DNA of 64,000 nucleotides from NCBI GenBank assembly GCA_030583665.1, contig CP129469.1, positions 1,665,043 through 1,729,042 of the forward strand. Direction: 5' to 3'. Position numbers and translations under genes: made by a program. This document shows positions 4,381 to 25,781 of this stretch, in pieces. The notes under the pieces were generated by a model, which searched no databases, was not told the origin of the DNA, and saw nothing but the letters and a program-made list of their open reading frames with translations. Position 1 is the first letter of the stretch, and every line of letters starts with the position of its first letter. Source of the stretch: Candidatus Jettenia sp. AMX2 (GTDB lineage: Bacteria; Planctomycetota; Brocadiia; Brocadiales; Brocadiaceae).

Positions 4381-7038
4381 TTAATTTACCGCAACCTTTT
4401 CCGGCTTATTCTCCTTTTCTTCAGGAGGAGCGGGAAGGCTTTCCGGAGAACTCTCCTTCTTTTGTAAAAGTACTTTCAGAAGAGAAGGGCATACTATGGA
4501 GGTAATCACCATTACCATAATGAGAGAAGAAAATATAACTTCATCGAATATCCCAATATCTCTCCCAATTCCTGCAGTTATTAAGGTACCTGCCATTCTT
4601 GTTGACAACCCTACACCTATGGCAAGGCGATTTAGCCCTTTCTCAATTGGACAAAGACCGGAAAACATCTTTCCGGCAACAGCAACGGCCGTTAATGCAA
4701 ACCCGAAGAGTATGGCATCTGCATTTAAAAGGCTCTTCAATTCCACCTGCGCCCCTACCTTCACAAAGAGTATTGGTACAAGTATCTTATAAAATGGCCT
4801 TATAAACGATTCAACAGAACGATATTCCCTGTCGTCCAAATCCCTTAATTTCACATTCCGCAGAAATAAGCCCGCAACAAATGCCCCAATTACCGTGTGA
4901 AGTCCGATTGAACCAAACATTAAGGCTAATAAGAGAGACAAAACTACAACAATTGGCAGGTTTAATCCTTCCGTTAGCCTCCTGGTTAAAAAATTCCCGA
5001 ACCTTTCGCCATATCGTAATATCACAATTAAAACACTCGTTATAATAGCAATTGCAAGACCAAAGCTCGTTGACATGCTCAGGAGAGACATCCCCTCACC
5101 AACTACAAATCCGGTTATTACACCAAACGTTAAGAGCACAATAATATCGGTGAGGATGGTTGCGCCTGACATAATCCTACCGTCCAGGGTATTTAGTGAC
5201 TTTAATTCGCTTAAAACTGCTTGCAGCAATCCGGTACTCGAATTACAAAGAATAACAGCCAGAAGAATTTTTGTACCAGTTGAGGCATCCGGAAGCAAAA
5301 GATTACCCAACATTAATCCTAAACCGGCAGGGGCTATTATACCACCAATACATGCCAGTAAAGATGAGGTACCGACCTTTAATAACAACCTGAGATCCGT
5401 GCTAAGGCCGGCTGTTAAAAGAAGCAGTAATGTCCCAAAATAGGATAACATCTTTAAAAACGGGGTCTCTCTCAGAAAATCGAAAAAATCCCAACCTGTA
5501 ACAAAATAAATATTGCCCAATATCATCCCTATGATCAGTTTCCCTACAACCGCAGGAAGCCCTGCTATAGTTGCACCCCAACCGCCAAACTTGGCTGCAA
5601 TTAGGGTTATAACAACGGCAAGGATAATACCGTGGGTAGGATCATTTGGCCATATATCCCAACTACGTCTTACCTTTTTTCTGTCTTTTATTATTTCCGG
5701 AGGGGGTTCAGGAGGAACAATTTCTATTACCGGAGGCTCTTCAATACGTATCTCCTCAGGTATTTTTTCGGGTTTGACAGGTTCCGCAGGTACAATTTCT
5801 GTTACCGGCGGTTCTTCTGCTCTCTCCTCTTCAATACGCACTTCCTCCGGTATTTCCACAGGTTCCGGTGGAACGATTTCAGCCACCGGAGGTTCTTTTA
5901 CCTCTTCCGGTATTTTTTCGGGTTCAACAGGTTCTGCTGGAACAATTTCTGATACCGGTGGTTCTTCTGCTCTCTCCTCTTCGATCCGCACTTCCTCTGG
6001 TATTTCCACAGGTTCCGGTGGAACGATTTCAGCCACCGGAGGTTCTTTTACCTCTTCCGGTATTTTTTCGGGTTCAACAGGTTCTGCTGGAACAATTTCT
6101 GATATCGGTGGTTCTTCTGCTCTCTTCTCTTCGACCCGCATTTCCTCCGGTATTTCCACAGGTTCCGGCGGAACGATTTCAACTGCGGGAGGTTTTTTTA
6201 TCTCTTCAACAGGCTCCTCTTCCGGTATTTTTTCAGGCTCAACAGGTTTGGCTGGAAGAATTTCTGTTACCGGTGGTTCTTCTCCCCTTTTCTCTTCAAC
6301 AGATATTCCTTCCAATTTATCAGATCTTTCAGACTCTGAAGGAATGGTTTCGGCAATCGGCATCTTTCCGTCTTCTTTTTCATCTTCATCTTCATCTTCA
6401 TCTTCATCTTCATCTTCAGCAACCTGTGCAGGTTCCCCGGCTACGACCGCTTCAGGGATTTGATATGGTCTTGTTTCATCAGCAAGAATAAAAAAAAACT
6501 CTTCCTTCGTGATGGCATTATGGGATTTATTGTCTATTGGAAAGTCCGGGATCTCTTTTTCTTCAATAGATAGTTGATGACCTTCAGCCTGCCGTTCTTT
6601 TTCTCTTTTTGTTTCAGTTTGTGGCTGATTTTCTCTGACAGATATTTCGGGAAATAACAGGGGAGGATAGAGCTGATGTCCAAGGTGGAGTGGGTCTGGT
6701 GGTTCTTCAACAGATGGGGAAGAAGGTAACGGCAGCGGCTGTGTATGCGGGATTTTATCTTCAGGCCCTGATGAAACGCCCATTTCATCGGTGGTTATTG
6801 ACTGATGCTTTTTATCTGAGGACCCATTCTGAAAATGATCTTCCTTTCGGGTTTTTGCAGATTTTTCATCCAAAAATTCTTTTTTGCCAATAAGATATTC
6901 AATTTCTGTTTCATCAAGAAGAAAAAATTCCTGGAAATCCTTCTGTATTTTCCGGCCTTCTGCATTTCCCGGTGGTGTCCACGGTACAATAATGCAATAG
7001 AAAAAAATTGGCAACAGGAAAGGAATTCTTTTTATCAT
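4381..7038 (-). CDS. Cation:proton antiporter (CPA2-like), paralogue with expanded Glu/Pro repeats
   Basis: An 885-residue paralogue of the antiporter just downstream: the membrane domains are nearly colinear and share long identical stretches (for example GNFLTRRLTEGLNLPIVVV). The extra length is in the extracytoplasmic N-terminal region (about residues 28-470). It contains an alternating Asp-Glu run near residues 208-220 and several copies of a 50-residue unit with the theme EEPPVSEIVPAEPVEPEKIPEE. In DNA these units recur every 150 bases (5811, 5961, 6111). The first ~25 residues look like a signal peptide. No RCK domain follows the transporter domain. The pair arose by tandem duplication followed by repeat expansion. 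The gap between the two genes is 156 bases, so they may be cotranscribed. The transported ion is not determined. Confidence 0.85.
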   Translation of the reverse strand: MIKRIPFLLPIFFYCIIVPWTPPGNAEGRKIQKDFQEFFLLDETEIEYLIGKKEFLDEKSAKTRKEDHFQNGSSDKKHQSITTDEMGVSSGPEDKIPHTQPLPLPSSPSVEEPPDPLHLGHQLYPPLLFPEISVRENQPQTETKREKERQAEGHQLSIEEKEIPDFPIDNKSHNAITKEEFFFILADETRPYQIPEAVVAGEPAQVAEDEDEDEDEDEDEKEDGKMPIAETIPSESERSDKLEGISVEEKRGEEPPVTEILPAKPVEPEKIPEEEPVEEIKKPPAVEIVPPEPVEIPEEMRVEEKRAEEPPISEIVPAEPVEPEKIPEEVKEPPVAEIVPPEPVEIPEEVRIEEERAEEPPVSEIVPAEPVEPEKIPEEVKEPPVAEIVPPEPVEIPEEVRIEEERAEEPPVTEIVPAEPVKPEKIPEEIRIEEPPVIEIVPPEPPPEIIKDRKKVRRSWDIWPNDPTHGIILAVVITLIAAKFGGWGATIAGLPAVVGKLIIGMILGNIYFVTGWDFFDFLRETPFLKMLSYFGTLLLLLTAGLSTDLRLLLKVGTSSLLACIGGIIAPAGLGLMLGNLLLPDASTGTKILLAVILCNSSTGLLQAVLSELKSLNTLDGRIMSGATILTDIIVLLTFGVITGFVVGEGMSLLSMSTSFGLAIAIITSVLIVILRYGERFGNFLTRRLTEGLNLPIVVVLSLLLALMFGSIGLHTVIGAFVAGLFLRNVKLRDLDDREYRSVESFIRPFYKILVPILFVKVGAQVELKSLLNADAILFGFALTAVAVAGKMFSGLCPIEKGLNRLAIGVGLSTRMAGTLITAGIGRDIGIFDEVIFSSLIMVMVITSIVCPSLLKVLLQKKESSPESLPAPPEEKENKPEKVAVN
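5811..6260. repeat. Tandem 150-bp coding repeats (Glu/Pro-rich 50-residue units)
   Basis: Inside the longer antiporter gene the phrase GTTCTTCTGC recurs at 5811, 5961 and 6111, exactly 150 bases apart, with near-identical sequence between; a decayed unit follows to about 6260. The period is a multiple of three, so unit gain or loss keeps the reading frame. This is the likely source of the length difference between the two antiporters. Confidence 0.85.
6381..6416. repeat. Hexanucleotide microsatellite (CATCTT x6) coding for Asp-Glu
   Basis: Six perfect copies of CATCTT lie within the antiporter gene and encode an alternating Asp-Glu run on the minus strand. Slippage would change the length of the acidic run without a frameshift. 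Confidence 0.9.
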
Positions 7039-7321: not shown

Positions 7322-8143
7322 ATGAGAATTTACAAAAAGATTTTATTCTATTTCCTGCTGACTGTTGCAATATCCTGGAGTATATTCCCTTTCCTCTGGA
7401 TTTTGTTAACATCCATCAAACCACCGCATCAGATTATGCAATTACCGCCTGTTTTTCCTGTCTCCATTACCTTTAACGCATATAAAAATGTCATTCTGGG
7501 AAGTTATTTTCCCCATTACCTCTTCAATAGTTTTATGGTATCGCTATCAACGGTGTTCATTATTATGCCAATTGCACTACTTGCGGCTTATAGTATCTCC
7601 CGTTTTTCATTCCGGGGAAAGAAACCTATCCTTTTTATGATTATTGTCTTATTCACCCTTCCTTCTATAAGCCTTGTGGCAGCTCTTTACAAACTGTTTT
7701 ATACATTAGGGTGGATTAATCTTCCGATATCCCTTATCGCTACCTACAGCACCCTCAATTTCCCTTTGGCCTTTTTTCTTTTGACGAAGTATCTTGATAA
7801 AATTCCGGTAGAAATGGATAGCGCTGCGCTCATAGATGGCTGTACCCATTTTCAGGCATTCCGGTATATTATTTCCCCTATAGCATTGCCCGGCACAATC
7901 TCTGCGGCAGTGCTAATCTTCATCTTTTGCTGGAATGAATTCCTTTTTGCCCTTACTTTTACCCTGGATGAATCGTCACGAATGGCAACGGTCGGGATAG
8001 CCTTGTTTCAGGGTACTTTTGAAATCCCCTGGGGGGATATTGCCGCTGCCTCTGTTATCGTCACGATTCCGCTTCTTGTCTTTTTAATGTTTTTCCAAAG
8101 ATACGTTGTGCAAGGTCTAACTGCCGGTGCATTAAAAGGATGA
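7322..8143 (+). CDS. ABC transporter permease, MalG/UgpE type
   Basis: This 273-residue inner-membrane permease belongs to the carbohydrate-uptake family CUT1. It has about six membrane helices, and the cytoplasmic EAA loop that docks the ATPase is clear from about residue 163 (EMDSAALIDG, then ISPIALPG). It overlaps the following ATPase gene by four bases (ATGA), so the two are translationally coupled. The matching MalF-type permease is not adjacent but 8 kb downstream at 16213, after two P-type ATPase genes. No strong ribosome site precedes the ATG. The substrate is unknown; the neighbouring glucosyl-3-phosphoglycerate pathway suggests a sugar-derived compatible solute. Confidence 0.88.
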   Translation: MRIYKKILFYFLLTVAISWSIFPFLWILLTSIKPPHQIMQLPPVFPVSITFNAYKNVILGSYFPHYLFNSFMVSLSTVFIIMPIALLAAYSISRFSFRGKKPILFMIIVLFTLPSISLVAALYKLFYTLGWINLPISLIATYSTLNFPLAFFLLTKYLDKIPVEMDSAALIDGCTHFQAFRYIISPIALPGTISAAVLIFIFCWNEFLFALTFTLDESSRMATVGIALFQGTFEIPWGDIAAASVIVTIPLLVFLMFFQRYVVQGLTAGALKG

Positions 8144-9192
8144 AAATAAAACTACAAAACATTACGAAACAGTATCATCATACCACCGCCGTTCATGGTC
8201 TGAATCTGGAGATACACGATGGTGAGTTTCTTGTTGTACTGGGGCCAAGCGGCAGCGGAAAATCGACAACATTAAATATGCTTGCAGGATTAGAGATTCC
8301 TACATCCGGAAAGATATTTTTTAATGATATCGTCGTTAATACCATCCCCCCGGGGAAAAGGGATATTGCATTGGTTTTTCAGAACTATGCCCTGTATCCG
8401 CATATGAAATGTTATGACAATATTGCCTTTCCCTTAAAAGTAAGAAAAGACAGGGACTTGCACCAGAAGGTTATTCAGTCGGCAAAGATGCTGGGATTAA
8501 GTGCTTTACTGAATAAATATCCGAAGGAGCTCTCAGGAGGTGAGAGGCAAAGGGTTGCATTGGCAAGGGCTCTTGTCAGAAATCCGCAGGTCTTTCTGAT
8601 GGATGAACCGTTGAGCAATCTGGATGCACGGCTCCGGCTTTCGGCGAGAGGTGAGCTAAAAAAATTACAAAGGGAACGTAATATAACAACCGTATATGTC
8701 ACCCATGATCAAACAGAGGCGCTTACTCTCGGAGACCGTATCGTGATAATGGATAAAGGAAGCCTGCAGCAGGCCGGCACACCGGTTGAAATATATCAAA
8801 AACCTCAAAATACCTTTATTGCAGGATTTATTGGAGCACCACCCATGAATCTGATACAGGTTAAAAAAGAAAGTACTTATTCTTTTCTTACAGGAGACAA
8901 CAGCGTTGAACTTTCTGTTCCTGTGCCAAACAAAAGCCACCTTATTCTTGGTATCCGGCCAGAACATTTAACTGTCGTTCCGGCAGAAAAGGATTACATT
9001 ATTTCCTGTCTTGTTGAAAACATAGAATATCTGGGAGATGAATCGATCGCCCATATAAAAATTAGCCCAACGGTAATGTGGTATGCCAAAAACATCACTG
9101 AAGGAATCAAAACAGGCAGCAAGGCTGGTTTGTTATTTTCACAACAGAATATCCATTGGTTTGATACAATAACAAAGGTAAGAATGAATTAG
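8140..9192 (+). CDS. ABC transporter ATPase, MalK/UgpC type
   Basis: This 350-residue ATPase energises a CUT1 sugar importer. Walker A GPSGSGKST is at residues 35-43, the ABC signature LSGGERQR near 131-138, and Walker B with D-loop (FLMDEPLSNLDARLR) near 152-166. The H-loop follows in YVTHDQTEA. The C-terminal ~110 residues form the MalK-type regulatory OB fold, with the typical IRPEHL segment. The start overlaps the stop of the MalG-type permease gene. It presumably works with that permease, the MalF-type permease at 16213 and the binding domain fused to the ATPase at 12201. Family assignment is secure; substrate is inferred only. Confidence 0.92.
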   Translation: MKIKLQNITKQYHHTTAVHGLNLEIHDGEFLVVLGPSGSGKSTTLNMLAGLEIPTSGKIFFNDIVVNTIPPGKRDIALVFQNYALYPHMKCYDNIAFPLKVRKDRDLHQKVIQSAKMLGLSALLNKYPKELSGGERQRVALARALVRNPQVFLMDEPLSNLDARLRLSARGELKKLQRERNITTVYVTHDQTEALTLGDRIVIMDKGSLQQAGTPVEIYQKPQNTFIAGFIGAPPMNLIQVKKESTYSFLTGDNSVELSVPVPNKSHLILGIRPEHLTVVPAEKDYIISCLVENIEYLGDESIAHIKISPTVMWYAKNITEGIKTGSKAGLLFSQQNIHWFDTITKVRMN

Positions 9193-9357
9193 GCTTCCGG
9201 CATCCTTAGCAACAGAAGAAGCACCGGCATTTTCCGGCAGAATTACAACTGCCCCCGGCTATCTTCCCGGGGATTCCTTATCTGTATCTGTAGTTCGTTT
9301 GTAACCACTTAATATTATAAATATACATTAAATTAAGAAAGGATGGAGCAAATCATC

Positions 9358-12138
9358 ATGAACTGGTATAAGCTCAACAAGAATGAACTCATCCAAAAAC
9401 TTGGGACTTCGGAAGAAGGGCTGTCCGGGGAGGAAGCAAAAGCACGTTTGCAGCAATACGGACCTAACAAGCTTGCCGAGGAAGAGGCTATAAGCAGGTT
9501 CAGGGTCTTTCTCCATCAGTTTACCAACCCGTTGATCTACATCCTTATTGTAGCCGCAGTAGTAACATCCCTGTTACAGGAATATATCGAAACCATCGTA
9601 ATCATGGCCGTGGTAATGATAAATGCCGTCATCGGTTATACCCAGGAGTTCAAGGCGGAACAAAGCGTAAAAGCACTCAAGAAGATGATGGTCTTGAAGG
9701 CAAGGGTGCTGAGGGATTCCAAAGAAAAGGAGATGTCGAGCGAAATGCTTGTACCCGGCGATGTGGTTCTCCTTGCATCGGGTACCAAGGTGCCGGCAGA
9801 TATACGGCTTATAAAAACGGTAGAATTAAGGGTAGAAGAGGCCATGCTTACCGGCGAATCAATCCCTGCTGAAAAGAACGCACAGCCTCTGAATGAGGAC
9901 AACCTGACCCCGGGGGACCAGCAGAACATGGCCTTTATGGGGACGATTGTCGTAAACGGAAGGGCAAAGGGTGTTGTTGTGGCAACCGGTTCCAAAACCA
10001 TCCTCGGCAATATTGCCCAGGAGGTAAAAGCCAAGGGTATTACCAAGACACCCATCCAGAAAAAAATTGAGCATTTTTCAAAGGCCATCGGGTTTGTCGT
10101 CCTTTCTTCTGCCGTACTGCTTTTCCTGCTCGGCATATTTATTGGTGTAGATATCAAGGATATGTTTATGACTGTGGTTGCAGCCTCCGTGGCAGCGATA
10201 CCGGAAGGGCTGCCTATCGTAGTAACGATAGCTATGGCAATCGGGGTTACCAGGATGGCAAGGCAGAATGCCATACTCAGAAAACTTCCTGCTGCTGAAA
10301 CCCTTGGCAGCGCTACGGTTATCTGTTCCGATAAGACCGGAACCCTTACCAAAAATGAGATGACGGTCAAGCTCGTCTACGACGGAAAACATACCTATGA
10401 AGTAGAAGGAAGCGGTTATGAACCGGAAGGCAAGATACTTTTAGAAGGGATGTCTGTAGAAAAGGCAGAAAAGAAGTCACTCTTTCAGGTTTTGCGGATA
10501 GGACTACTCTGCAATGAGTCCGATGTTTATGGAGAAGACGGAAGGTACAAGGTCGATGGTGATCCCACAGAGGCGGCCCTTATTGTCTCGGCAAGGAAGG
10601 CCGGTCTTGACCCGGAGGAAGAAAAAAACCATTATCCTGAAATGGCAATTGTACCGTTTGAATCCGAACGCCAATACATGGCAACCCTCCATAAGTACAG
10701 GGGAAAAAAGTCGGTATTCGTGACAGAAGAAGGGTCCGGTCAATATGCTGGATACATACCAGATATGCACCGGGACAGAAAACTCGTCTTTGTCAAGGGA
10801 GCACCCGAACGGGTGCTTGATATGTGCACCACCCTTATGTCAGGTGATACTCTTGATAAAAAAGCTATTCTCCATGTGGCCGATGCCTTTGCAAAGGAAG
10901 GGTTACGGGTCCTTGCCCTGGCCTACAAGGATGTCCCCCCCGATACGGACGAGATTACGCATCATGATGTAGAATCAAACCTTGTCTTTGCCGGATTACA
11001 GGGGATGATGGACCCTCCCCGGCAGGAGGTTCTGGAGGCTATCAAAGGGTGCCACAAGGCGGGTATACGGGTTAACATGATAACCGGGGACCATGCCGTT
11101 ACCGCAAAGGCCATTGCAAAAATGCTCAAAATCACCGGTGAAGGTGAAGAAATTATCACAGGCAAAGAACTTGACGGGATGGACGACGCAACACTTTTTG
11201 AGAAGGTTAAGACCGTCTCGGTATATGCAAGGGTTTCTCCGGAACATAAGTTGAGAATCGTGCAGCAGTTAAAAAAGCACGGCGAGATCGTGGCAGTAAC
11301 GGGTGATGGCGTCAACGACGCCCCTGCCCTCAAGGAGGCCCATCTGGGTATTGCTATGGGGAAGACAGGGACGGACGTAACCAGGGAAGCGGCAGATATG
11401 GTGCTTGCCGATGATAATTTTGCAAGCATATTTAATGCGGTAAGGGAAGGCAGGGTATTATTTGACAATATACGGAAGGTTACCTTTTTTCTTTTACCGA
11501 ACGGAGTCGCTGCAATCCTGGCGATCATTACCACCCTTTTTCTCGGTATACCAATACCGTATCTTCCCACGCAGTTGCTGTGGATAAACGTCGTCACAAA
11601 CGGCTTGCAGGATGTTGCGCTGGCCTTTGAACCTGAAGAAAAAGGGGTTATAGACCGGCCACCCAGGAATCCCAAAGAAGGTATTCTGTCCCGCCTTTTG
11701 ATAGAAAGAACTGTTCTGGTAGGTTTTGTTATCGCTATTGGCGTCATGTATAATTATATGTCTGCATTATTTCTTGAAGAGGTTTCACTGGAAAAAGCAA
11801 GAACGACTGCGATGACAACGGTAGTCTTTTTCCAGTTCTTTCAGGCATGGAATTCCCGGTCAGCACTTACCTCTATTTTCAGAATGAATCCTTTTGGTAA
11901 TTTGTTTCTCTTCTACAGTTTAATTGCAGCCCTTTTTGCCCAGATTGCGGTACTGTATGCACCTCCCCTCCAATTTGTCTTTCAAACAGAACCGCTTACC
12001 GCAAAGGAATGGATACATATATTAATAGCAAGTTCGACGATTGTTGCCATTATTGAGATCGATAAATGGATAAGAAGAATACAAAGAAGAAAAAAGGTTG
12101 CAAATCAGGTTTCTTCAATACCATCAACAGTAAGATAA
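9358..12138 (+). CDS. P2-type cation-transporting ATPase (SERCA/PMCA-like), copy 1
   Basis: This 926-residue P-type ATPase is full length. I choose the ATG at 9358 over the one at 9343: GGATGGAG lies 9 bases upstream, and the paralogue downstream starts at the equivalent residue (MHWYKL versus MNWYKL). It has an N-terminal cation-ATPase domain, the actuator TGES (~165-168), the helix-4 PEGLP (282-286), the phosphorylated Asp325 in DKTGT, and the hinge TGDGVNDAPAL (~648). About ten membrane helices are expected. PEGLP points to the P2A calcium-pump group, but helix 6 reads NVVTNGLQD where SERCA has Asp800 after Thr, so the ion is uncertain. It lies between ABC-transporter genes and is duplicated by the next gene. 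Confidence 0.92.
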   Translation: MNWYKLNKNELIQKLGTSEEGLSGEEAKARLQQYGPNKLAEEEAISRFRVFLHQFTNPLIYILIVAAVVTSLLQEYIETIVIMAVVMINAVIGYTQEFKAEQSVKALKKMMVLKARVLRDSKEKEMSSEMLVPGDVVLLASGTKVPADIRLIKTVELRVEEAMLTGESIPAEKNAQPLNEDNLTPGDQQNMAFMGTIVVNGRAKGVVVATGSKTILGNIAQEVKAKGITKTPIQKKIEHFSKAIGFVVLSSAVLLFLLGIFIGVDIKDMFMTVVAASVAAIPEGLPIVVTIAMAIGVTRMARQNAILRKLPAAETLGSATVICSDKTGTLTKNEMTVKLVYDGKHTYEVEGSGYEPEGKILLEGMSVEKAEKKSLFQVLRIGLLCNESDVYGEDGRYKVDGDPTEAALIVSARKAGLDPEEEKNHYPEMAIVPFESERQYMATLHKYRGKKSVFVTEEGSGQYAGYIPDMHRDRKLVFVKGAPERVLDMCTTLMSGDTLDKKAILHVADAFAKEGLRVLALAYKDVPPDTDEITHHDVESNLVFAGLQGMMDPPRQEVLEAIKGCHKAGIRVNMITGDHAVTAKAIAKMLKITGEGEEIITGKELDGMDDATLFEKVKTVSVYARVSPEHKLRIVQQLKKHGEIVAVTGDGVNDAPALKEAHLGIAMGKTGTDVTREAADMVLADDNFASIFNAVREGRVLFDNIRKVTFFLLPNGVAAILAIITTLFLGIPIPYLPTQLLWINVVTNGLQDVALAFEPEEKGVIDRPPRNPKEGILSRLLIERTVLVGFVIAIGVMYNYMSALFLEEVSLEKARTTAMTTVVFFQFFQAWNSRSALTSIFRMNPFGNLFLFYSLIAALFAQIAVLYAPPLQFVFQTEPLTAKEWIHILIASSTIVAIIEIDKWIRRIQRRKKVANQVSSIPSTVR

Positions 12139-12200: not shown

Positions 12201-15200
12201 ATGCACTGGTATAAGCTCCATAAGAATGAACTCATTCAAAAACTTGAAACTTCGGAAGAAGGGCTGTCCGAGGCAGAAGCAAGAGCACGTTTGCAGCAAT
12301 ACGGCCCCAACAAACTTGCCGAGGAAGAGGCTATAAGCAGGCTCAGGGTCTTTCTCCATCAGTTTACCAACCCCTTAATCTACATCCTTATTGTAGCTGC
12401 GGTTATAACGTTCCTGTTACAGGAATTTATCGACACCATCGTAATTATGGCTGTGGTAACGATAAATGCCGTCATCGGTTATACCCAGGAGTTCAAGGCG
12501 GAACAAAGCGTAAAAGCACTCAGGAAGATGATGGTCTTGAAGGCAAGGGTGCTGAGGGATTCCAAAGAAAAGGAGATATCCGGAGAAATGCTTGTACCCG
12601 GCGATGTGGTTCTCCTTGCATCGGGTACCAAGGTGCCGGCAGATATACGGCTTATAAAAACGGTAGAATTAAGGGTAGAAGAGGCCATGCTTACCGGTGA
12701 ATCGATCCCTGCTGAAAAGAACACATTGCCCATGAAAGATGAGAATTTAACCCCTGGAGACCAGCAGAACATGGCCTTTATGGGGACTATTGTCGTAAAC
12801 GGTAGGGCAAAAGGTGTTGTTGTGGCAACCGGTTCCAAAACCATCCTCGGCAATATTGCCCAGGAGGTGAAAGCCAAGGGTATTACCAAGACACCCATCC
12901 AGAGAAAAATAGAGCGTTTTTCGAAGGCCATCGGGTTTGTCGTCCTCTCGTCTGCCGTACTGCTTTTCCTGCTCGGCATATTTATTGGCGTGAGTATCAA
13001 GGATATGTTTCTGACTGTGGTTGCTGCCTCCGTGGCAGCGATACCGGAAGGGTTGCCTATCGTGGTAACGATAGCCATGGCAATCGGGGTTACGAGAATG
13101 GCAAGGCAGAATGCCATCATCAGAAAACTTCCCGCTGCTGAAACCCTTGGCAGCGCTACGGTTATCTGTTCCGATAAGACCGGAACCCTTACCAAAAATG
13201 AGATGACGGTCAAGCTCGTCTACGACGGAAAACATACCTATGAAGTAGAAGGAAGCGGTTATGAACCGGAAGGCAAGATACTTTTGGAAGGGATGCCCAT
13301 TGAGACTCCGGAAAAGAAGGCGCTACTTCAGGTCCTGCGGATAGGACTGCTCTGTAATGAGTCCGATGTTTATGAAGAAGACGGCCAGTATAAGGTCGAT
13401 GGCGACCCGACAGAGGCAGCCCTTATTGTCTCGGCAAGGAAGGCCGGTCTTGATCCGGAGGAAGAAGGCAACCATTATCAGGAAGTTGCAATCGTGCCGT
13501 TTGAATCCGAACGCCAATACATGGCAACCCTCCATAAGTACAGGGGAAAAAAGTCGGTATTCGTGACAGAAGAAGGGGCCAGTCAATATGCCGGATACAT
13601 TCCGGATATCCACAGAGAGAGAAAGATTGTCTTCGTCAAAGGTGCGCCCGAACGGGTACTTGATATGTGCACGACCCTTATATCAGGCGATACTCTTGAT
13701 AAAAAAGCTATTCTCCATGTGGCCGATGCCTTTGCAAAGGAAGGTTTACGGGTCCTTGCCCTGGCCTACAAGGATGTCCCCCCCGATACGGACGAGATTA
13801 CGCATCATGATGTAGAATCAAACCTTGTCTTTGCCGGATTACAGGGGATGATGGACCCTCCCCGGCAGGAGGTTCTGGAGGCTATCAAAGGGTGCCACAA
13901 GGCAGGTATACGGGTTAACATGATAACCGGGGACCATGCCGTTACCGCAAAGGCCATTGCAAAAATGCTCAATATCACCGGTGAAAGTGAAGAAATTATT
14001 ACCGGTAAGGAACTCGACGTAATGGACGACACAACACTTTTTGAGAAGGTTAAGACCGTCTCGGTGTATGCAAGGGTTTCTCCGGAACATAAGTTGAGAA
14101 TCGTGCAGCAGTTAAAAAAGCACGGCGAGATCGTGGCGGTAACGGGTGATGGCGTCAACGACGCCCCTGCCCTCAAGGAGGCGCATCTGGGTATTGCTAT
14201 GGGGAAGACAGGGACTGACGTAACCAGGGAAGCGGCTGATATGGTGCTTGCCGATGATAATTTTGCAAGTATATTTAATGCGGTAAGGGAAGGCAGGGTA
14301 TTATTTGACAATATACGGAAGGTCATCTTCTTCCTTTTACCGAACGGAGTCGCTGCAATCCTGGCGATCATTACCACCCTTTTCCTCGGTATACCAATAC
14401 CGTACCTGCCCACGCAGCTTCTGTGGATAAACGTCGTCACAAACGGCTTGCAGGATGTTGCGCTGGCCTTTGAGCCAGAGGAAAGAGGGGTTATTGATAA
14501 GCCACCACGTGATCCCAAAGAAGGTATTCTGTCCCGCCTTTTGATAGAAAGAACTATCCTGGTAGGTTTCGTTATCGCTACAGGCGCCATGTATAATTAT
14601 ATGTCTGCATTAAACGAAGGGGTATCGCTGGAAAAGGCAAGGACGACTGCGATGACAACGGTAGTCTTTTTCCAGTTCTTTCAGGCATGGAATGCCCGGT
14701 CTGAGCTTACCTCTGTCTTTAGAATTAATCCATTTAGCAATTTATTCCTGTTTTACAGCATAGTAGCAGCCTTTTTTGCCCAACTTGCAGTATTGTATGT
14801 GCCGTTTCTTCAATTTGTTTTTCAAACAGAGCCACTTACCACAACGGAATGGATGCATATTGGAATAGCAAGTTCGACAATTGTTGCTATTATCGAGACC
14901 GATAAATGGATAAGAAGAAGAACAAGAGAAAAAAGAAGAGAGGCATTCACGATAAATTTCAACGCAAGGAAAATGCTTCTGCCGGCAGTTTATACCTTTA
15001 TTGTGTTATGGATTGCTTATTCATTTATCAGAGCCAGAAAAACAGATGAGATTGTTTTCAGCATAGGTGCCGGTACCGAAGAGATTAACGTAATAAGAAA
15101 TCTTATCAGCAATTTTGAAAATGAAAATCCCGGGATAAAAGTCAAATTAAATGTCCTTCCGTCACCTACTGATCAGCAACATCATTATTACCTAACGACT

Positions 15201-16232
15201 TTGGGTGCAAAGACACGGGAAATCGACGTACTAAGAATCGATACGATCTGGATTGCAGAATTTGCATCGGCAGGATGGTTAGAACCACTCGATAATCTGA
15301 TACAGGCAAGAGAGCGTACTGCTTTTATTCCGATAACAAGGAAAACCAATACCTTTCGCAATAACCTTTATGCTATTCCCTGGAATGCCAATATCGGACT
15401 GCTTTATTACAGGAAAGATTTACTTGATAAACATAACCTTTCCCCGCCGGATACCTGGGAAGAGCTTATAGATACTCATAGAAAAATTGTTGCCGTTGAG
15501 TCCATATACGGTTATATCTGGCAGGGAAAACAGTATGAAGGACTGGTTTGTAATTTTATTGAGTTTATCGGAAGCAACAACGGGAAAATTATTGATGAGG
15601 AAGGAAGGATAGTCGTTAATTCACCACAAAATAAGGAAGCCATGGATCTCATGCACGACTTAATATGGAAGTATCAGATATCACCGCCCAATACCCACAG
15701 TGAACTTATGGAAGAACCTTCAAGACATCTCTTTCAGCAAGGAATGGGCCTTTTCCTGAGAAACTGGACTTATGTATGGGATTTGACCCAAAGAGACCCT
15801 TCCATGCGAGATAAGGTAGGGGTAACCCGGTTGCCAAGGTTCACGGATGCAAAATCAACATCAGTATATGCGGGCTGGCACCTTGCCATAAATACTCATT
15901 CAATCAAAAAAGAACAAGCCTGGCAGCTCATTCACTTCCTGACTTCACGCCGGGTGCAAAAGGAGCTTGCATCAGCATTATCATGGGCACCGACACGAAC
16001 CGCATTATACAAAAATCCAAGACTGCTCCGGAAACTACCTTTTCTACCTATCGTACACGAAGCGTTTGAAGATATTCAGATACGGCCTAACCTTCCTTAT
16101 TACCAATGGATCAGCGCTACCATACAAAGAAACGTAAACAGGGCATTATCTACCCGTCTAAGCAGCGGGGAAGCCTTACAGAATATTCAGACAGAATTAG
16201 AACGTATCCAGCATGAATTTACAAAAGAATAA
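12201..16232 (+). CDS. Fusion: P2-type cation ATPase + ABC solute-binding protein
   Basis: One open frame of 1343 residues joins two proteins. Residues 1 to ~910 are a complete P2-type ATPase closely similar to the preceding gene (TGES 165-168, PEGLP 282-286, Asp325 in DKTGT, TGDGVNDAPAL 648-658). After KWIRR the two paralogues diverge. A new hydrophobic helix follows at ~925-945 (MLLPAVYTFIVLWIAYSF), then a family-1 sugar-binding protein (~950-1343) with the typical start VFSIGAGTEEIN and the motif LEPLDNL. P2 ATPases end in the cytoplasm, so the added helix would place the binding domain outside, as required. An internal ATG at 14973 with AAGGA only two bases upstream could allow separate synthesis of the binding protein. 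The stop overlaps the MalF-type permease gene by 20 bases. Confidence 0.85.
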   Translation: MHWYKLHKNELIQKLETSEEGLSEAEARARLQQYGPNKLAEEEAISRLRVFLHQFTNPLIYILIVAAVITFLLQEFIDTIVIMAVVTINAVIGYTQEFKAEQSVKALRKMMVLKARVLRDSKEKEISGEMLVPGDVVLLASGTKVPADIRLIKTVELRVEEAMLTGESIPAEKNTLPMKDENLTPGDQQNMAFMGTIVVNGRAKGVVVATGSKTILGNIAQEVKAKGITKTPIQRKIERFSKAIGFVVLSSAVLLFLLGIFIGVSIKDMFLTVVAASVAAIPEGLPIVVTIAMAIGVTRMARQNAIIRKLPAAETLGSATVICSDKTGTLTKNEMTVKLVYDGKHTYEVEGSGYEPEGKILLEGMPIETPEKKALLQVLRIGLLCNESDVYEEDGQYKVDGDPTEAALIVSARKAGLDPEEEGNHYQEVAIVPFESERQYMATLHKYRGKKSVFVTEEGASQYAGYIPDIHRERKIVFVKGAPERVLDMCTTLISGDTLDKKAILHVADAFAKEGLRVLALAYKDVPPDTDEITHHDVESNLVFAGLQGMMDPPRQEVLEAIKGCHKAGIRVNMITGDHAVTAKAIAKMLNITGESEEIITGKELDVMDDTTLFEKVKTVSVYARVSPEHKLRIVQQLKKHGEIVAVTGDGVNDAPALKEAHLGIAMGKTGTDVTREAADMVLADDNFASIFNAVREGRVLFDNIRKVIFFLLPNGVAAILAIITTLFLGIPIPYLPTQLLWINVVTNGLQDVALAFEPEERGVIDKPPRDPKEGILSRLLIERTILVGFVIATGAMYNYMSALNEGVSLEKARTTAMTTVVFFQFFQAWNARSELTSVFRINPFSNLFLFYSIVAAFFAQLAVLYVPFLQFVFQTEPLTTTEWMHIGIASSTIVAIIETDKWIRRRTREKRREAFTINFNARKMLLPAVYTFIVLWIAYSFIRARKTDEIVFSIGAGTEEINVIRNLISNFENENPGIKVKLNVLPSPTDQQHHYYLTTLGAKTREIDVLRIDTIWIAEFASAGWLEPLDNLIQARERTAFIPITRKTNTFRNNLYAIPWNANIGLLYYRKDLLDKHNLSPPDTWEELIDTHRKIVAVESIYGYIWQGKQYEGLVCNFIEFIGSNNGKIIDEEGRIVVNSPQNKEAMDLMHDLIWKYQISPPNTHSELMEEPSRHLFQQGMGLFLRNWTYVWDLTQRDPSMRDKVGVTRLPRFTDAKSTSVYAGWHLAINTHSIKKEQAWQLIHFLTSRRVQKELASALSWAPTRTALYKNPRLLRKLPFLPIVHEAFEDIQIRPNLPYYQWISATIQRNVNRALSTRLSSGEALQNIQTELERIQHEFTKE

Positions 16233-17070
16233 ACTTCCTTACCTGTTCCTGTTGCCCGGCTTACTGCTTGTACTGGCGTTTAGTTTTATTCCTTTTCTCA
16301 CTACGGTGATAACTTCCTTTCAGGATGAAAAACTCATCCTTCCACAGGAAAGGTTTACAGGAATTCACAATTATCAGCAAATTCTGACCAATGTACATTT
16401 TTGGTACTCACTTGCAATTACTATCGTGTATGCCTGCGTCTCAATATTCTTCGAGGCTATTCTGGGGTTATGCCTGGGACTAACGATGAATCGCCTGACA
16501 CCCAAAAGCAGTTTTTTAAGGATACTTATTCTTATTCCATGGACAATCCCCACCGTAGTAACCGCCAAAATATGGCAGTGGATGTTTGATTATAATCTGG
16601 GCATTATCAATTATGTACTGGAAACCCTGATGATTGGAAGGGTAAACTGGCTCGGAGAACCTTTTCTTGCCCTTTTATCTATTGTGGTCGCCGACGTATG
16701 GAAAACATCGCCCTTTGTTGCAATTATCGTTTTAGCTGGCCTTTCTGCAATACCCCGGGATATTTACAAGGCTGCTACTGTTGACGGTGCGAACAGCTGG
16801 CAGCAATTCCGTTTTATGACATTTCCACTCCTGCTCCCAATATTAGGCGTTGCCATTCTCTTCAGAGCTATTGATGCCCTCAGGATATTTGACCTGGTTT
16901 ATGTACTTACCGGCGGTGGACCAGGAGGAGCAACAGAGACCCTGTCGGTTTATGCTTATAAATTGTTTTTTTACAAAGGTGATTTTGGACAAGGAGCAGC
17001 TACATCGGTAATCGTTTTGCTTCTGGTTGCAGGATTTGGCTATTTCTATACAAAAAAATCTTTTGCATAA
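16213..17070 (+). CDS. ABC transporter permease, MalF/UgpA type
   Basis: This 285-residue CUT1 permease has six predicted helices and starts with a typical MalF-family segment (LPYLFLLPGLLLVLAFSFIPF). The EAA loop is at about residues 180-210 (IPRDIYKAATVDGA, then TFPLLLPILG). LTGGGPGGATETL near the last helices is characteristic of UgpA-type permeases. It begins inside the end of the ATPase/binding-protein fusion gene, so the two are coupled. It is the partner of the MalG-type permease at 7322, and together with the MalK-type ATPase they form a complete importer, though in permuted gene order. Confidence 0.9.
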   Translation: MNLQKNKLPYLFLLPGLLLVLAFSFIPFLTTVITSFQDEKLILPQERFTGIHNYQQILTNVHFWYSLAITIVYACVSIFFEAILGLCLGLTMNRLTPKSSFLRILILIPWTIPTVVTAKIWQWMFDYNLGIINYVLETLMIGRVNWLGEPFLALLSIVVADVWKTSPFVAIIVLAGLSAIPRDIYKAATVDGANSWQQFRFMTFPLLLPILGVAILFRAIDALRIFDLVYVLTGGGPGGATETLSVYAYKLFFYKGDFGQGAATSVIVLLLVAGFGYFYTKKSFA

Positions 17071-17284: not shown

Positions 17285-18493
17285 ATGGGAGACTTTTTCC
17301 AAAACGGAGAGATTACCACTCTTCACAAATTTAATACTGCCTCTTTGGAAAAAATCGAACAGGAGATTGAACAGTATGCCAGGTTAAGACAAATAGCGCT
17401 TGTTTTGCCAACTACACCGGCGGAAATGAACGGGCCCGCCCTCCCCGGAATTATCAATAAATTAAAAGATGTTAAGTATCTTAACCAGATTGTCATTACT
17501 TTGGGCAAATTTACTGATGCCGATTTTTGTCAGGCGAAAGAATTCTTTTCAATACTTCCTCAGGAAACAAAATTAATCTGGAACGACGGGAAAAATATTC
17601 AAAACCTCTATAACCTCCTTACAGAAGAAAAGATATCGGCAGGTGCCGACGGTAAAGGACGATCCGCATGGCTTGCTTATGGGTATGTACTGGCTACCGA
17701 AAAATCTAAAATCATCGCCCTCCATGATTGTGACATCGTAAATTACGACCGGGAACTTTTAGCACGATTATGCTACCCTGTTGTTAATCCAAATCTGGAT
17801 TTCGAGTTTTGCAAGGGATATTACCAACGCATAACAGACCGCATGCACGGACGGGTAACAAGGCTTTTTGTAACTCCCTTTATCAGGTCACTGAGAAAAA
17901 CAATAGGACCTATTGACTTTATTGAATATCTGGACAGCTTCCGCTATGCCCTGTCAGGAGAATTCTCCATGGTAGCAGACCTCGCCAGGATTAACAGAAT
18001 TCCCGGTGATTGGGGGCTTGAGGTGGGCGTTTTGGCAGAAATATACAGAAATTGTTCAAAACGGCGGATATGTCAGGTCGATTTATGTGAAACGTATGAG
18101 CATAAACATCAGCCTTTATCTGATGAAGATCCTCGTACAGGGTTAACAAAAATGAGTATTGATATTGCCAAATCGATTTATAAAAATCTCGCAAGCATGG
18201 GTATTGTGTTCTCAAATGAATACTTTAAGACCCTCAAGGCAATTTACCAGAGGACAGCACATGAATTTATAGAAAAATATAATCACGACTCAACCATTAA
18301 CGGACTCTATTTCGACCGACACCAGGAAATGAAGGCCGTCGACGCCTTTACTAAAAGCATTGGTATCGCAGGAGAACAATTTCTGGAAGACCCATCCGGC
18401 ATCCCCTTTATCCCTAACTGGAACCGGATTACCTCTGCGATTCCTGATTTTTTCAATAAATTAATCGTAGCCGTTGAGGCAGATAATGTATAA
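17285..18493 (+). CDS. gpgS: Glucosyl-3-phosphoglycerate synthase (GT81-like)
   Basis: This 402-residue GT-A glycosyltransferase resembles the GpgS family, which transfers glucose from a nucleotide sugar to 3-phosphoglycerate. Visible features are the N-terminal nucleotide-binding part (IALVLPTTPAEM), GRSAWLAYGY near residue 125, and the metal-binding DCDIV motif near residue 148. The segment YALSGEFSM and a C-terminal His-rich acceptor region (YEHKHQPL) are also family-like, and the length fits. AAGGG lies 8 bases before the ATG. The product, glucosyl-3-phosphoglycerate, is the precursor of the compatible solutes glucosylglycerate and mannosylglucosylglycerate. The next two genes supply a second glycosyltransferase and a matching phosphatase. 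The family call is fairly firm; the exact sugar donor is inferred. Confidence 0.78.
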   Translation: MGDFFQNGEITTLHKFNTASLEKIEQEIEQYARLRQIALVLPTTPAEMNGPALPGIINKLKDVKYLNQIVITLGKFTDADFCQAKEFFSILPQETKLIWNDGKNIQNLYNLLTEEKISAGADGKGRSAWLAYGYVLATEKSKIIALHDCDIVNYDRELLARLCYPVVNPNLDFEFCKGYYQRITDRMHGRVTRLFVTPFIRSLRKTIGPIDFIEYLDSFRYALSGEFSMVADLARINRIPGDWGLEVGVLAEIYRNCSKRRICQVDLCETYEHKHQPLSDEDPRTGLTKMSIDIAKSIYKNLASMGIVFSNEYFKTLKAIYQRTAHEFIEKYNHDSTINGLYFDRHQEMKAVDAFTKSIGIAGEQFLEDPSGIPFIPNWNRITSAIPDFFNKLIVAVEADNV

Positions 18494-18564: not shown

Positions 18565-19818
18565 ATGGAAACCCTAACGAAGAAATATAACTCAGCGCTC
18601 CGTGAAAATGTCCACATGTGGATCAGGAAGATAAAGGACATCGATATACTGGTTGGCATTCCCTGTTATAATTGCGAGGATACCATTTCTTATGTAGTAT
18701 CAACATCCGCAGAAGGGCTAAAGAAATATTATCCGGATAAAAAAATTGCCGTATTTGTTTCGGATGGTGGTTCACTTGATGATACCCGTGAAAAGGCTTA
18801 CTCGACCAATATTCCAGAAGGTGTGGAACGCCGGGTAACTATCTACCGGGGCATACCTGGAAAAGGTACGGCGTTCCGGGCTATTTTTGAAGTTGCAAAA
18901 TTGCTGAAAGCAGATGCGACTATCGTGGTGGATGCAGACCTCAGAAGCATTACGCCGGAGTGGATTAAGCTGCTGGCCAACCCCATTATAAACAAACAAG
19001 CCGGCTATGTATCCCCCCTCTATCTTCGCCACAAATACGATGGAACCATTACGAATAACATCGTTTATCCGATGACCAGGGCTCTTTATGGATGCAAGGT
19101 ACGCCAGCCAATAGGCGGCGATTTTGGAATTTGTGGCGATCTGGCTGCTTATTATATCAAGGAAGATGTATGGGAAACAGATGTGGCACGGTTTGGAATT
19201 GACATCTGGACAACCACCACGGCGATAAATGAAGGATTTAAGATAGTACAGGCTCATTTGGGAACAAAAGTCCATAATGCAAAGGACCCTGCCCTTGATC
19301 TTGGTCCTATGTTTCGCCAGGTAGTCAGTACCCTGTTTTATCTTATGGGCAAATATGAAAGCTATTGGAAAAAACCAAGAGAAAGTACAACACCTGATAC
19401 GATTGGAACACCTCACGAAGTATCAAAGATTGAACCGGTATCAGTCAATTATACAAAATTATTGGCAGAGTTTTCCGAGGGATTTGAACAGTTTGACCCC
19501 CTTTATGAACAGGTCTTGGAAGCTGATAATTTTAATCGTTTATATGAGATTGTACAAATTTTTAAAAAGACGGGAGAAATACAGTTCCCTGCAGATTTAT
19601 GGGCAAAGGTACTTTACGATTTTGCCTTCACCTATTTGAAATGGCACCGGAACAGAAGGAGACTCGTCGATATTCTTACCCCTTTGTATTTTGGACGTAC
19701 CGCCGCTTATTGCCATGAAGTGATAGAAAAAGACTCGGCAGAGGCTGAAGCGGTTGTTGATATGCAAGCACAGGAGTTTGAAAAACAAAAAACCTATTTA
19801 TTACAAAAATTTTTGTAG
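18565..19818 (+). CDS. GT-A glycosyltransferase, candidate mannosylglucosyl-3-phosphoglycerate synthase
   Basis: This 417-residue protein has a family-2-like GT-A fold: the nucleotide-binding start DILVGIPCYN (~28-37), SDGGSLDD (~66-73) and the metal-binding VDADLRS (~122-128). An acceptor-side segment (QPIGGDFGI) and GIDIWTTTTA recall the GpgS/mannosylglycerate synthase group. The last ~150 residues are helical. It lies between a GpgS-like synthase and an MpgP-like phosphatase. In Petrotoga mobilis a trio GpgS-MggA-MggB makes mannosylglucosylglycerate, and this gene is in the MggA position. I infer that it adds a second sugar to glucosyl-3-phosphoglycerate, but a different acceptor is possible. 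Confidence 0.6.
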   Translation: METLTKKYNSALRENVHMWIRKIKDIDILVGIPCYNCEDTISYVVSTSAEGLKKYYPDKKIAVFVSDGGSLDDTREKAYSTNIPEGVERRVTIYRGIPGKGTAFRAIFEVAKLLKADATIVVDADLRSITPEWIKLLANPIINKQAGYVSPLYLRHKYDGTITNNIVYPMTRALYGCKVRQPIGGDFGICGDLAAYYIKEDVWETDVARFGIDIWTTTTAINEGFKIVQAHLGTKVHNAKDPALDLGPMFRQVVSTLFYLMGKYESYWKKPRESTTPDTIGTPHEVSKIEPVSVNYTKLLAEFSEGFEQFDPLYEQVLEADNFNRLYEIVQIFKKTGEIQFPADLWAKVLYDFAFTYLKWHRNRRRLVDILTPLYFGRTAAYCHEVIEKDSAEAEAVVDMQAQEFEKQKTYLLQKFL

Positions 19819-19829
19819 TTTTACAGGGA

Positions 19830-20639
19830 ATGAAATATATTATTTTTACAGACCTCGATGGTACGTTATTAGACCATCATACCTATTCTTTTGAGAAGGC
19901 AAAGGATGCTTTGCTCCAGACGAAAAAGCAGAATATACCTGTTATCTTTTGTACCAGCAAAACCCAGGCGGAAATTGAGGTATACAGGGAAAGAATGGGC
20001 AATGAAGATCCGTTTATTCCGGAAAATGGAGGAGCAATCATTATCCCAAAAGGTTATTTCAAATCAGTTTCCGGGAAAGCAGGAAATCGTTATATAAAAA
20101 TTGAACTCGGAATCCCTCACTCTCTAATCATCGATACCCTCGCAAAAATAAAACAATCCACCCGTGCGATTATAAAGGGGTTTTCAGATTTAACCCCGGA
20201 AGAAATTTCTTCCCTTACCGGTCTTGATCCCGTCACGGCTGAATTATCCAAAAAGCGTTATTATTCTGAACCAATAATTATTGAGGGTACTCCAGCCACA
20301 CTACAGGAAGTAAAAGAAAAAATACTTTCCGCAGGATTAAACTTTTTAGAAGGGAGGCGGTTTCATCATGTTTGCGGTTCAGGAACAGATAAAGGAAATG
20401 CCGTTCGCGCCCTTACTGATATTTACAAAGATACTATCTGTGACAGTATAAAAACTATCGGCATTGGAGACAGCCTCATTGATCTCCCCATGCTGGCATC
20501 AGTTGATATCCCCATCGTTGTCCAAAGAACACCAGGACATTACGATAGCAGGATTTCTCTCCCAAACCTTATATATGCAGATGACATAGGACCTGCCGGC
20601 TGGAATAAAGCCATATTAACCATAGTACAAAAACAATAG
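19830..20639 (+). CDS. HAD-IIB phosphatase, mannosyl-3-phosphoglycerate phosphatase family
   Basis: This 269-residue HAD-superfamily phosphatase starts with the catalytic DLDGTLLD motif (residues 8-15). It continues with the second HAD motif in VIFCTSKTQAEIEVYRERM and the family-typical PFIPENGGAI. Near the C-terminus, GIGDSLIDLPML gives the metal-binding Asp pair. These features match mannosyl-3-phosphoglycerate phosphatases (MpgP) and the related MggB. It would remove the phosphate from the product of the two preceding synthases to release the compatible solute. It lies 11 bases after the glycosyltransferase gene, so the trio is probably one transcript. The exact phosphorylated substrate is inferred from context. 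Confidence 0.8.
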   Translation: MKYIIFTDLDGTLLDHHTYSFEKAKDALLQTKKQNIPVIFCTSKTQAEIEVYRERMGNEDPFIPENGGAIIIPKGYFKSVSGKAGNRYIKIELGIPHSLIIDTLAKIKQSTRAIIKGFSDLTPEEISSLTGLDPVTAELSKKRYYSEPIIIEGTPATLQEVKEKILSAGLNFLEGRRFHHVCGSGTDKGNAVRALTDIYKDTICDSIKTIGIGDSLIDLPMLASVDIPIVVQRTPGHYDSRISLPNLIYADDIGPAGWNKAILTIVQKQ

Positions 20640-22445: not shown

Positions 22446-22952
22446 ATGAAAGTAAAAGATATTATGGATGTATCACCAGATGTCCTTAAGGTTAAAGATA
22501 TTATGGATACTTCGCCGGATGTCCTTCGCGTATCAGATACCTTTGAAAATCTTGTAAAGATACTGAATAAGGTTAAATACCATGCAGTTTTGGTGCTTGA
22601 TAAGGATGACAAACTGGCGGGGATACTGACGGAAGGGGATATTATAAAAGTTCTTATCCCTACCTATATAACCATTGATGAATCGTTAATAACCGTAATG
22701 GATGCAAATTATTTTGAGAATAAATGTAAAGAATCACGGAATTTAACACTTACCGAAATTATGACAAAAAACATCATAACCGTACGTGAGGGAGATTCGG
22801 TAATGAAAGCAGCTGCGCTTATGTTCACTCACAGGATACATTTTCTTCCTGTACTGAGAGGCGATAAAGTCGTTGGAATTGTACCACGTAAGACATTAAT
22901 AGAACTTGTAACAAGAACCCTTGCAGAAGATAAAACCGGTGGTATTGAATAA
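22446..22952 (+). CDS. CBS-domain protein, copy 1
   Basis: This 168-residue cytoplasmic protein has two CBS motifs: DIMDTSPDVLRV...DKLAGILTEGDI and EIMTKNIITVREGD...DKVVGIVPRKTL. CBS pairs bind adenine nucleotides and often regulate transporters, so it probably controls the ion transporter encoded next. The first 13 residues after Met are an imperfect direct repeat (VKDIMDVSPDVLK, then VKDIMDTSPDVLR), a 39-base internal duplication. AAGGAG stands 9 bases before the ATG. A second copy, almost identical except for one internal residue and the last few, is at 25163. The 415-base gap to the next gene holds several repeats. Confidence 0.9.
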   Translation: MKVKDIMDVSPDVLKVKDIMDTSPDVLRVSDTFENLVKILNKVKYHAVLVLDKDDKLAGILTEGDIIKVLIPTYITIDESLITVMDANYFENKCKESRNLTLTEIMTKNIITVREGDSVMKAAALMFTHRIHFLPVLRGDKVVGIVPRKTLIELVTRTLAEDKTGGIE

Positions 22953-23367
22953 AAGAATATTTTAATTTAATGTATAAGAATTTCAAACTGTTAGTTCCTC
23001 CCCCCAGTCTGCGTGCGGTGACGCACAGGCAGGGAGGTTTGGTGGGGGTGAAAGGAACAATCTGTGATCGCCCTCCCTTAATCCCTCCCGTCAAGGGAGG
23101 GAAAATGTTTTTTTTAGTCGCCGAAGGCCTAATTTATTACGATAAAAGGTAAACAATAACCTAGTACAACGTTTCATAAAAACCTATACAAAAATGAATT
23201 TCATTGTGAGGAGCGGAACGACGAAGCAAACTCTTGTTCTATAAAGCCTTAAGATTGCTTCGCTGTCGCTCGCAATGACAATAACATAGGTAAACATATT
23301 TGTAGAACGATACACTAGTAAAAAAACAATTTTATAGATCATAAAACAGAGGGGAGGAAATAAATTC
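22953..23367. repeat. Repeat-rich intergenic region in copy 1 (C-rich hairpin and REP-like element)
   Basis: This gap is about 300 bases longer than the matching gap in the second copy of the duplication (25670-25781). The extra sequence holds a C-rich hairpin (CCCTCCCTT at 23071-23079 with AAGGGAGGG at 23093-23101). It also holds a REP-like inverted repeat at 23201-23280, whose arms are TCATTGTGAGGAGCGGAA and GCTTCGCTGTCGCTCGCAAT. No gene is visible. GGGGAGG at the end serves the transporter gene. Confidence 0.8.
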
Positions 23368-25162: not shown

Positions 25163-25669
25163 ATGAAAGTAAAAGATATTATGGATGTATCACCAGATGT
25201 CCTTAAGGTTAAAGATATTATGGATACTTCGCCGGATGTCCTTCGCGTATCAGATACCTTTGAAAATCTTGTAAAGATACTGAATAAGGTTAAATACCAT
25301 GCAGTTTTGGTGCTTGATAAGGATGACAAACTGGCGGGGATACTGACGGAAGGGGATATTATAAAAGTTCTTATCCCTACCTATATAACCATTGATGAAT
25401 CGTTAATAACCGTAATGGATGCAAATTATTTTGAGAATAAATGTAAAGAATCACGGAATTTAACACTTACCGAAATTATGACAAAAAACATCATAACCGT
25501 ACGTGAGGGAGATTCGGTAATGAAAGCAGCTGCGCTTATGTTCACTCACAGGATACATTTTCTTCCTGTACTGAGAGGCGATAAAATCGTTGGAATTGTA
25601 CCACGTAAGACATTAATAGAACTTGTAACAAGAACCCTTGCAGAAGATAAAACCAGCGGCCTTAAATGA
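25163..25669 (+). CDS. CBS-domain protein, copy 2
   Basis: A second copy of the 168-residue CBS-pair protein at 22446. The proteins are identical except for one internal change (DKIVGIV for DKVVGIV) and the C-terminal residues (SGLK for GGIE). The same ribosome site and upstream hairpin are present. It lies 112 bases before its own transporter gene, without the repeats that separate the first pair. It probably regulates the adjacent transporter by nucleotide binding. Confidence 0.9.
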   Translation: MKVKDIMDVSPDVLKVKDIMDTSPDVLRVSDTFENLVKILNKVKYHAVLVLDKDDKLAGILTEGDIIKVLIPTYITIDESLITVMDANYFENKCKESRNLTLTEIMTKNIITVREGDSVMKAAALMFTHRIHFLPVLRGDKIVGIVPRKTLIELVTRTLAEDKTSGLK

Positions 25670-25781
25670 AAGAGTATTTTAATTTATTATAATGAAAGGT
25701 AAGTAATTACCTTGTTTTACCTCTTTTGTAGAGTGATAAAACAATTTATAGATTATAAAACAGAAGGGAGGAAATAAATTC

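Follow-up and report, generated by a model that had tools for sequence, protein, structure and literature searches.

A single open reading frame in Candidatus Jettenia sp. AMX2 runs through a complete P-type cation pump and continues into the solute-binding protein (SBP) of an ABC importer, which raises the question of whether the two halves form one genuine protein and, if so, whether ion pumping and solute uptake are joined in it. The locus was analyzed in a window of 64,000 nucleotides (contig CP129469.1, positions 1,665,043 to 1,729,042), taken from a genome represented by a single contig of 3.46 Mb. The window genome (G000) was treated as a congener of Ca. Loosdrechtia aerotolerans (G001), in a genus separate from Jettenia, a name used below for the genomes G005, G012 and G017 of genus g5, G017 being taken as Ca. 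Jettenia ecosi. Fused genes found once in each of these three genomes are called copies A, and the second one of G005 is called copy B.

The fusion gene comprises 1343 codons with no internal stop and, as the preliminary description had proposed, joins a full P2-type ATPase to a family-1 SBP (Table 1). The Pfam domains Cation_ATPase_N (residues 3-69), E1-E2_ATPase (113-303), HAD/Hydrolase (321-662) and Cation_ATPase_C (732-904) cover the first part, and SBP_bac_1 (965-1254, E = 7.9e-36) lies in the C-terminal part. Between them, the basic linker RRRTREKRREAF precedes a hydrophobic helix, and a stretch across the junction reads REAFTINFNARKMLLPAVYTF. The ATPase encoded immediately upstream carries no binding domain, also in agreement with the earlier account. 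The two tandem ATPase copies (9343-12138 and 12201-14940) share 91.5% DNA identity over 2739 nt; they diverge in the basic tail of the C-terminus, the point from which the fusion starts.

Table 1. Features of the fusion locus and its surroundings, numbered from the first nucleotide of the window.
Feature	Position	Strand	Evidence
MalG-type permease subunit, opening the importer operon	7322..8143	+	PF00528; 83-84% identity to MalG of Jettenia, which there directly precedes MalK and the fusion
MalK-type ABC ATPase subunit	8140..9192	+	PF00005, OB_MalK, TOBE_2; closest NCBIfam UgpC/MalK-type; position shared with Jettenia and Brocadia
Unfused paralogue of the P2-type cation ATPase (ATG at 9358 the more likely start)	9343..12138	+	Same Pfam domains as the fusion, minus the SBP; sequence before the ATG
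Fusion gene: P2-type ATPase, linker, membrane helix and SBP, 1343 aa	12201..16232	+	Open frame, domains, four fused homologues
ATPase half, residues 1-905	12201..14915	+	Pfam; DKTGT at residue 325, TGE and TGDGVND present
Basic linker, residues 906-924, joining ATPase helix 10 to the SBP anchor	14916..14972	+	Stop-free junction codons
Hydrophobic helix, residues 925-943, ancestral SBP anchor	14973..15029	+	Kyte-Doolittle mean 1.99; same segment in unfused SBPs; helix in the model
Trehalose/maltose-type solute-binding domain, residues 949-1343	15045..16229	+	SBP_bac_1; 1EU8 best by sequence and fold; pLDDT mostly >90
MalF-type permease subunit, sharing 20 nt with the end of the fusion	16213..17070	+	PF00528; conserved overlap
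Glucosyl-3-phosphoglycerate synthase (GpgS)-like glycosyltransferase	17285..18493	+	NF040724 GpgS, 364.6 bits, below the cut-off of 700
Second glycosyltransferase, GT2 type	18565..19818	+	PF00535; conserved neighbor
Mannosyl-3-phosphoglycerate phosphatase (MPGP) family protein	19830..20639	+	TIGR01486, 239 bits, above the cut-off of 164.75

The helix at the junction had first been taken for an extra element, a view that did not survive comparison with unfused SBPs: since these bear an equivalent N-terminal hydrophobic segment, the fusion helix is the inherited signal anchor of the SBP and not an addition. Unlike family-1 SBPs made as separate proteins with an N-terminal export signal or lipobox of their own, the SBP part follows the ATPase with no stop in between and has no lipobox; the hydrophobic anchor is kept. 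P2 ATPases have a cytoplasmic C-terminus, which is consistent with the anchor preserving its orientation in the fusion, with its start in the cytoplasm and its end outside. The topology suggested earlier, in which the ATPase ends inside, the helix runs outward and the SBP lies outside, also agrees with the basic linker, the hydrophobic helix and the positive-inside rule.

The same fusion was searched for in 62 genomes of the order, as the preliminary description had recommended, and it was found again. The fused form was present in five genes from four genomes and two genera, namely the window gene, a pair in G005, and single genes in G012 and G017. The four Jettenia homologues share 64-73% identity with the window fusion, span its residues 1-1343 and contain no internal stops. 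In a 392-genome sample of the phylum Planctomycetota, no further match covering both halves occurred among the matches listed. Phyla outside the Planctomycetota were sampled solely through the SBP relatives that ranked highest in the genome collection (the best 80), and of these J. ecosi alone was fused. Eight other long ATPase frames (G282, G332, G392, G358, G287, G376, G190 and G202) were rejected as further fusions, as the position of the DKTGT motif placed their extra length upstream, in a chance open frame, and not at the C-terminus. Long frames also precede the SBPs of L077 and L102; these two loci were likewise discarded, their SBPs having lipobox-like N-termini and the preceding frames reading as non-coding. 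Copy B of G005 (L032, 12645-16610) lies about 2.5 kb downstream of copy A, behind a Na_H_Exchanger-family gene and without a MalF of its own; it is 73% identical to the window fusion, compared with 64% for copy A of the same genome.

Near-identical tandem ATPase copies such as those of the window are able to mislead an assembly, and an assembly or frame error could be imagined as the origin of the join. This origin was considered negligible, since the same join occurs in independent genomes with differing linkers and lengths and the window genome is a single contig. The preliminary description had stated that two separate genes with a stop between them in a relative would refute the fusion. 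Such an arrangement does exist: in Ca. Loosdrechtia aerotolerans, the SBP follows the end of the ATPase in an unchanged frame, with a gap of 36 nt and five in-frame stops separating the two. Because the genes are fused in Jettenia, this pair shows an ancestral or split state and not an artefact. The upstream side of this unfused operon is a contig edge, and MalG is absent from the assembly, probably lost at a repeat. Two near-identical lineage-A ATPases (see below) were found on contigs C54 and C17 of the same assembly (L035 and L036; 96% identity over the 136 residues available).

The long frame might also be translated alongside a separate SBP, released by proteolytic cleavage in the stretch from helix 10 to the SBP or made by internal initiation, for which the window offers an ATG at 14973 that is in frame, immediately precedes the hydrophobic helix and has AAGGA two bases upstream. 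Two products of this kind were judged improbable, as the Shine-Dalgarno-like spacing at this ATG is too short to be good and the codon occurs in the window only. In the Jettenia copies A, the only candidates are a TTG where helix 10 ends and, in G012, another TTG within helix 11; in copy B, the segment from helix 10 to helix 11 contains no ATG, GTG or TTG. As the ATG at 14973 is poorly spaced and not conserved, the fused chain is the product expected from the gene sequences.

The ATPase half possesses the actuator TGE, the phosphorylation motif DKTGT, the hinge motif TGDGVND and both the N- and C-terminal Cation_ATPase domains of the P2 group, and its catalytic motifs are intact and invariant across the alignment of the fused proteins (A3). 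Its nearest solved structure was SPCA1, followed by LMCA1, and it shares the full P2 architecture and catalytic motifs with the PMR1/SPCA and bacterial LMCA1-type P2A Ca2+ ATPases. It differs from these pumps in the attached SBP, in a score of 728.8 bits against the PMR1-type Ca2+ ATPase model (TIGR01522; cut-off 798.3), and in M6, which reads TNGLQD and lacks the acidic residue of Ca2+ pumps. We take the Ca2+-site residues of P2A pumps to be the M4 Glu (PEGL), the M6 Asn and the M6 Asp (SERCA D800/SPCA D742). The Glu and Asn are present, but the M6 Asp is replaced by Asn748 in all five fusions. The label of P2A Ca2+ ATPase was therefore ruled out by Asn748, which does not remove the pump function itself.

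Concerning the SBP half, the trehalose/maltose-binding protein of Thermococcus litoralis (1EU8) was the best match by both sequence (40% identity) and predicted fold (Foldseek TM 0.88 by target). The AlphaFold2 model of residues 700-1343 was confident for the SBP, with the two-lobed fold of family-1 carbohydrate SBPs; the ATPase helices were of low confidence, and the arrangement of the domains is not readable from this model. Cognate MalF, MalG and MalK genes flank the fusion in the window. The SBP thus resembles the T. litoralis protein and its MalFGK partners in fold and closest solved sequence, and in Jettenia also in having TreT beside the fusion, whereas it is anchored through a P-type ATPase and, in the window, has N in place of D in the stretch P-W-N-A-[N/D]-I-G. 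This position presumably contacts the ligand in 1EU8. It is D in the Jettenia SBPs and in 1EU8, whereas the window and most of the relatives read have N, a difference suggestive of differing ligands in Jettenia and the window species.

The surroundings of the fusions bear on the same question. Four of the five fusions lie inside a MalGK-MalF operon and overlap MalF by 20 nt, the exception being copy B, which has no adjoining MalF. Relatives show this overlap, already pointed out for the window, whether they are fused or not. Brocadia, Kuenenia and others encode the SBP in a gene of its own with no ATPase gene beside it, and the MalF overlap is usually 20 nt; these MalG-MalK-SBP-MalF operons have orthologous permeases and SBPs (62-69% identity for the SBP), but no ATPase follows MalK. 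The order in Jettenia is TreT, MalG, MalK, fusion and MalF, followed in G012 by OtsA and OtsB. Neither TreT nor OtsA/GT20 was found by a search of the window genome, where the GpgS-like and MPGP-family genes follow MalF; a GpgS-like gene also adjoins the SBP operon in the L. aerotolerans, Kuenenia-genus and G008 genomes. These neighbors, TreT/OtsAB in Jettenia and the GpgS-like and MPGP-family genes in the window, point to a putative recapture of compatible solutes and strengthen the compatible-solute idea of the preliminary description. We propose trehalose as the candidate ligand in Jettenia, a glucosylglycerate-type or other small glycoside appearing more likely in the window species.

A Na_H_Exchanger-family antiporter flanks the fusion loci in both the window and Jettenia, which fits a role in ion and osmotic homeostasis. 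The window gene (4381-7038, minus strand) encodes a long acidic, proline-rich and repetitive N-terminal extension, with the transporter domain at residues 481-860. Further downstream, a near-identical tandem duplicate (22446-24696 and 25163-27110) encodes a CBS-domain protein and a CitMHS/ArsB-type ion transporter.

The two halves of the fusions have different histories. All five SBP halves group in a single clade (91/88) whose neighbor is the SBP of L. aerotolerans; the branching inside this clade is uncertain, the alternatives having AU p = 0.15 and 0.06. The ATPase halves fall into two lineages, one (A) with the Jettenia copies A and an L. aerotolerans ATPase, and the other (B) with the window fusion, its unfused paralogue and copy B of G005. 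Forcing the fused ATPase halves into a single clade costs 211 log-likelihood units (AU p = 2.5e-60), and this topology was rejected. By comparison with the A3 consensus, the copies of lineage A carry a Glu in M5 that is absent from lineage B. As the SBP halves form one clade and the ATPase halves two lineages, the pairing was formed or re-formed at least twice, either by two fusions or by a single fusion whose ATPase half was later replaced. In either history, the pairing was kept or regained with a different pump.

A genome profile search of the four fused genomes (G000, G005, G012 and G017) detected no free SBP of this family. The fused copies are the only such SBPs there, and the MalFGK importer is therefore left without a free partner of that family.

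The reading that we moderately favor is that the SBP of a compatible-solute importer is tethered to a P2 cation pump in one membrane assembly. It builds on the fusion and its recurrence, the identity of the SBP and the integrity of the domains, the lack of free copies and the operon shared with the permeases; from these we infer the assembly, its osmotic role and direction, the stability of the single chain and contact of the tethered SBP with MalFG. One polypeptide would comprise a P2-type pump that carries, beyond its tenth helix, the SBP of a MalFGK-type importer, whose ancestral helix would follow the cytoplasmic C-terminus of the pump and place the binding domain outside. As the SBP of the four fused genomes occurs in fused form only, the importer would have to take its ligand from the pump-tethered SBP. 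The likely outcome would be a fixed pump-importer assembly sharing one membrane patch, and under osmotic stress the means for osmolyte recapture and cation pumping would be made together, with pump and SBP in a one-to-one ratio. Against this reading, the congener L. aerotolerans keeps the ATPase and SBP genes apart, so the fusion is not essential. The weak conservation of the linker, the missing MalF beside copy B and the lack of TreT and OtsA in the window genome also count against it.

The main rival is an accidental fusion, in which the ATPase lost its stop codon and the pump became a tolerated N-terminal carrier and membrane anchor of the SBP, with no functional coupling. Little change would have been needed, given the in-frame ATPase 36 nt upstream of the SBP in L. 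aerotolerans; the ancestral SBPs already had a membrane helix, leaving the topology unchanged, and the linker is poorly conserved (35-40% identical to Jettenia, compared with 62-75% for the domains on either side). An accident was nevertheless considered rather unlikely, as the fusion was kept in two genera, five genes and two ATPase lineages, and none of the four fused genomes retained a free SBP of that kind. With one SBP clade and two ATPase lineages, the combination thus outlasted the change of ATPase lineage or arose again after it.

Two regulatory schemes can be set beside the tethered assembly. Import and pumping might be allosterically coupled within one assembly as a hybrid primary transporter, the conformational change of the SBP upon osmolyte binding or MalFGK docking regulating the pump, or the pump regulating delivery; we hold this to be a doubtful extension. 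Alternatively, the SBP might act chiefly as a sensor, the ligand-loaded protein regulating cation transport with the ABC permease as a secondary partner. Binding-protein domains serve as sensor modules in some other proteins, and copy B is fused with no MalF beside it. A sensor was still thought very improbable, as the operon position and 20-nt overlap of the other four fusions are those expected for a working importer component.

Covalently tethered binding domains are known from OpuA and GlnPQ, type I ABC importers whose binding domains are fused to the transporter (PMC11065425, PMC8025302). OpuA, an osmoregulatory compatible-solute importer, provides a precedent for anchored binding domains (PMC11065425). 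The likeness lies in the tethering of a substrate-binding domain to a membrane transporter, but in OpuA and GlnPQ the domain sits on the importer's own permease, whereas here it sits on an unrelated P-type cation pump and the permeases are encoded by separate genes. No description of an ATPase-SBP fusion was found in the open-access literature, in line with the earlier statement that no such system was known, this absence being weak given that scope. For J. ecosi, the passages searched in the genome paper name a maltose/maltodextrin ABC transporter and no fusion (PMC6828613). The parts are thus known, and their combination appears undescribed.

Overall, the suggestion that a pump is tied to a sugar or compatible-solute importer held for its physical side, the tethering being encoded by the gene itself and recurring in Jettenia. 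As to its functional side, we infer that the fusion probably ties sugar uptake to ion pumping in the control of salt stress. P-type ATPases are treated as one class of transporters and ABC importers as another, and the fusion chain would link them directly and physically. As it was built or rebuilt with two ATPase lineages, the function of this link is directly testable. Wastewater treatment, also in saline and alkaline reactors, makes use of anammox bacteria, and the fusion would offer a handle on the coupling of ion balance and compatible solutes in these organisms.
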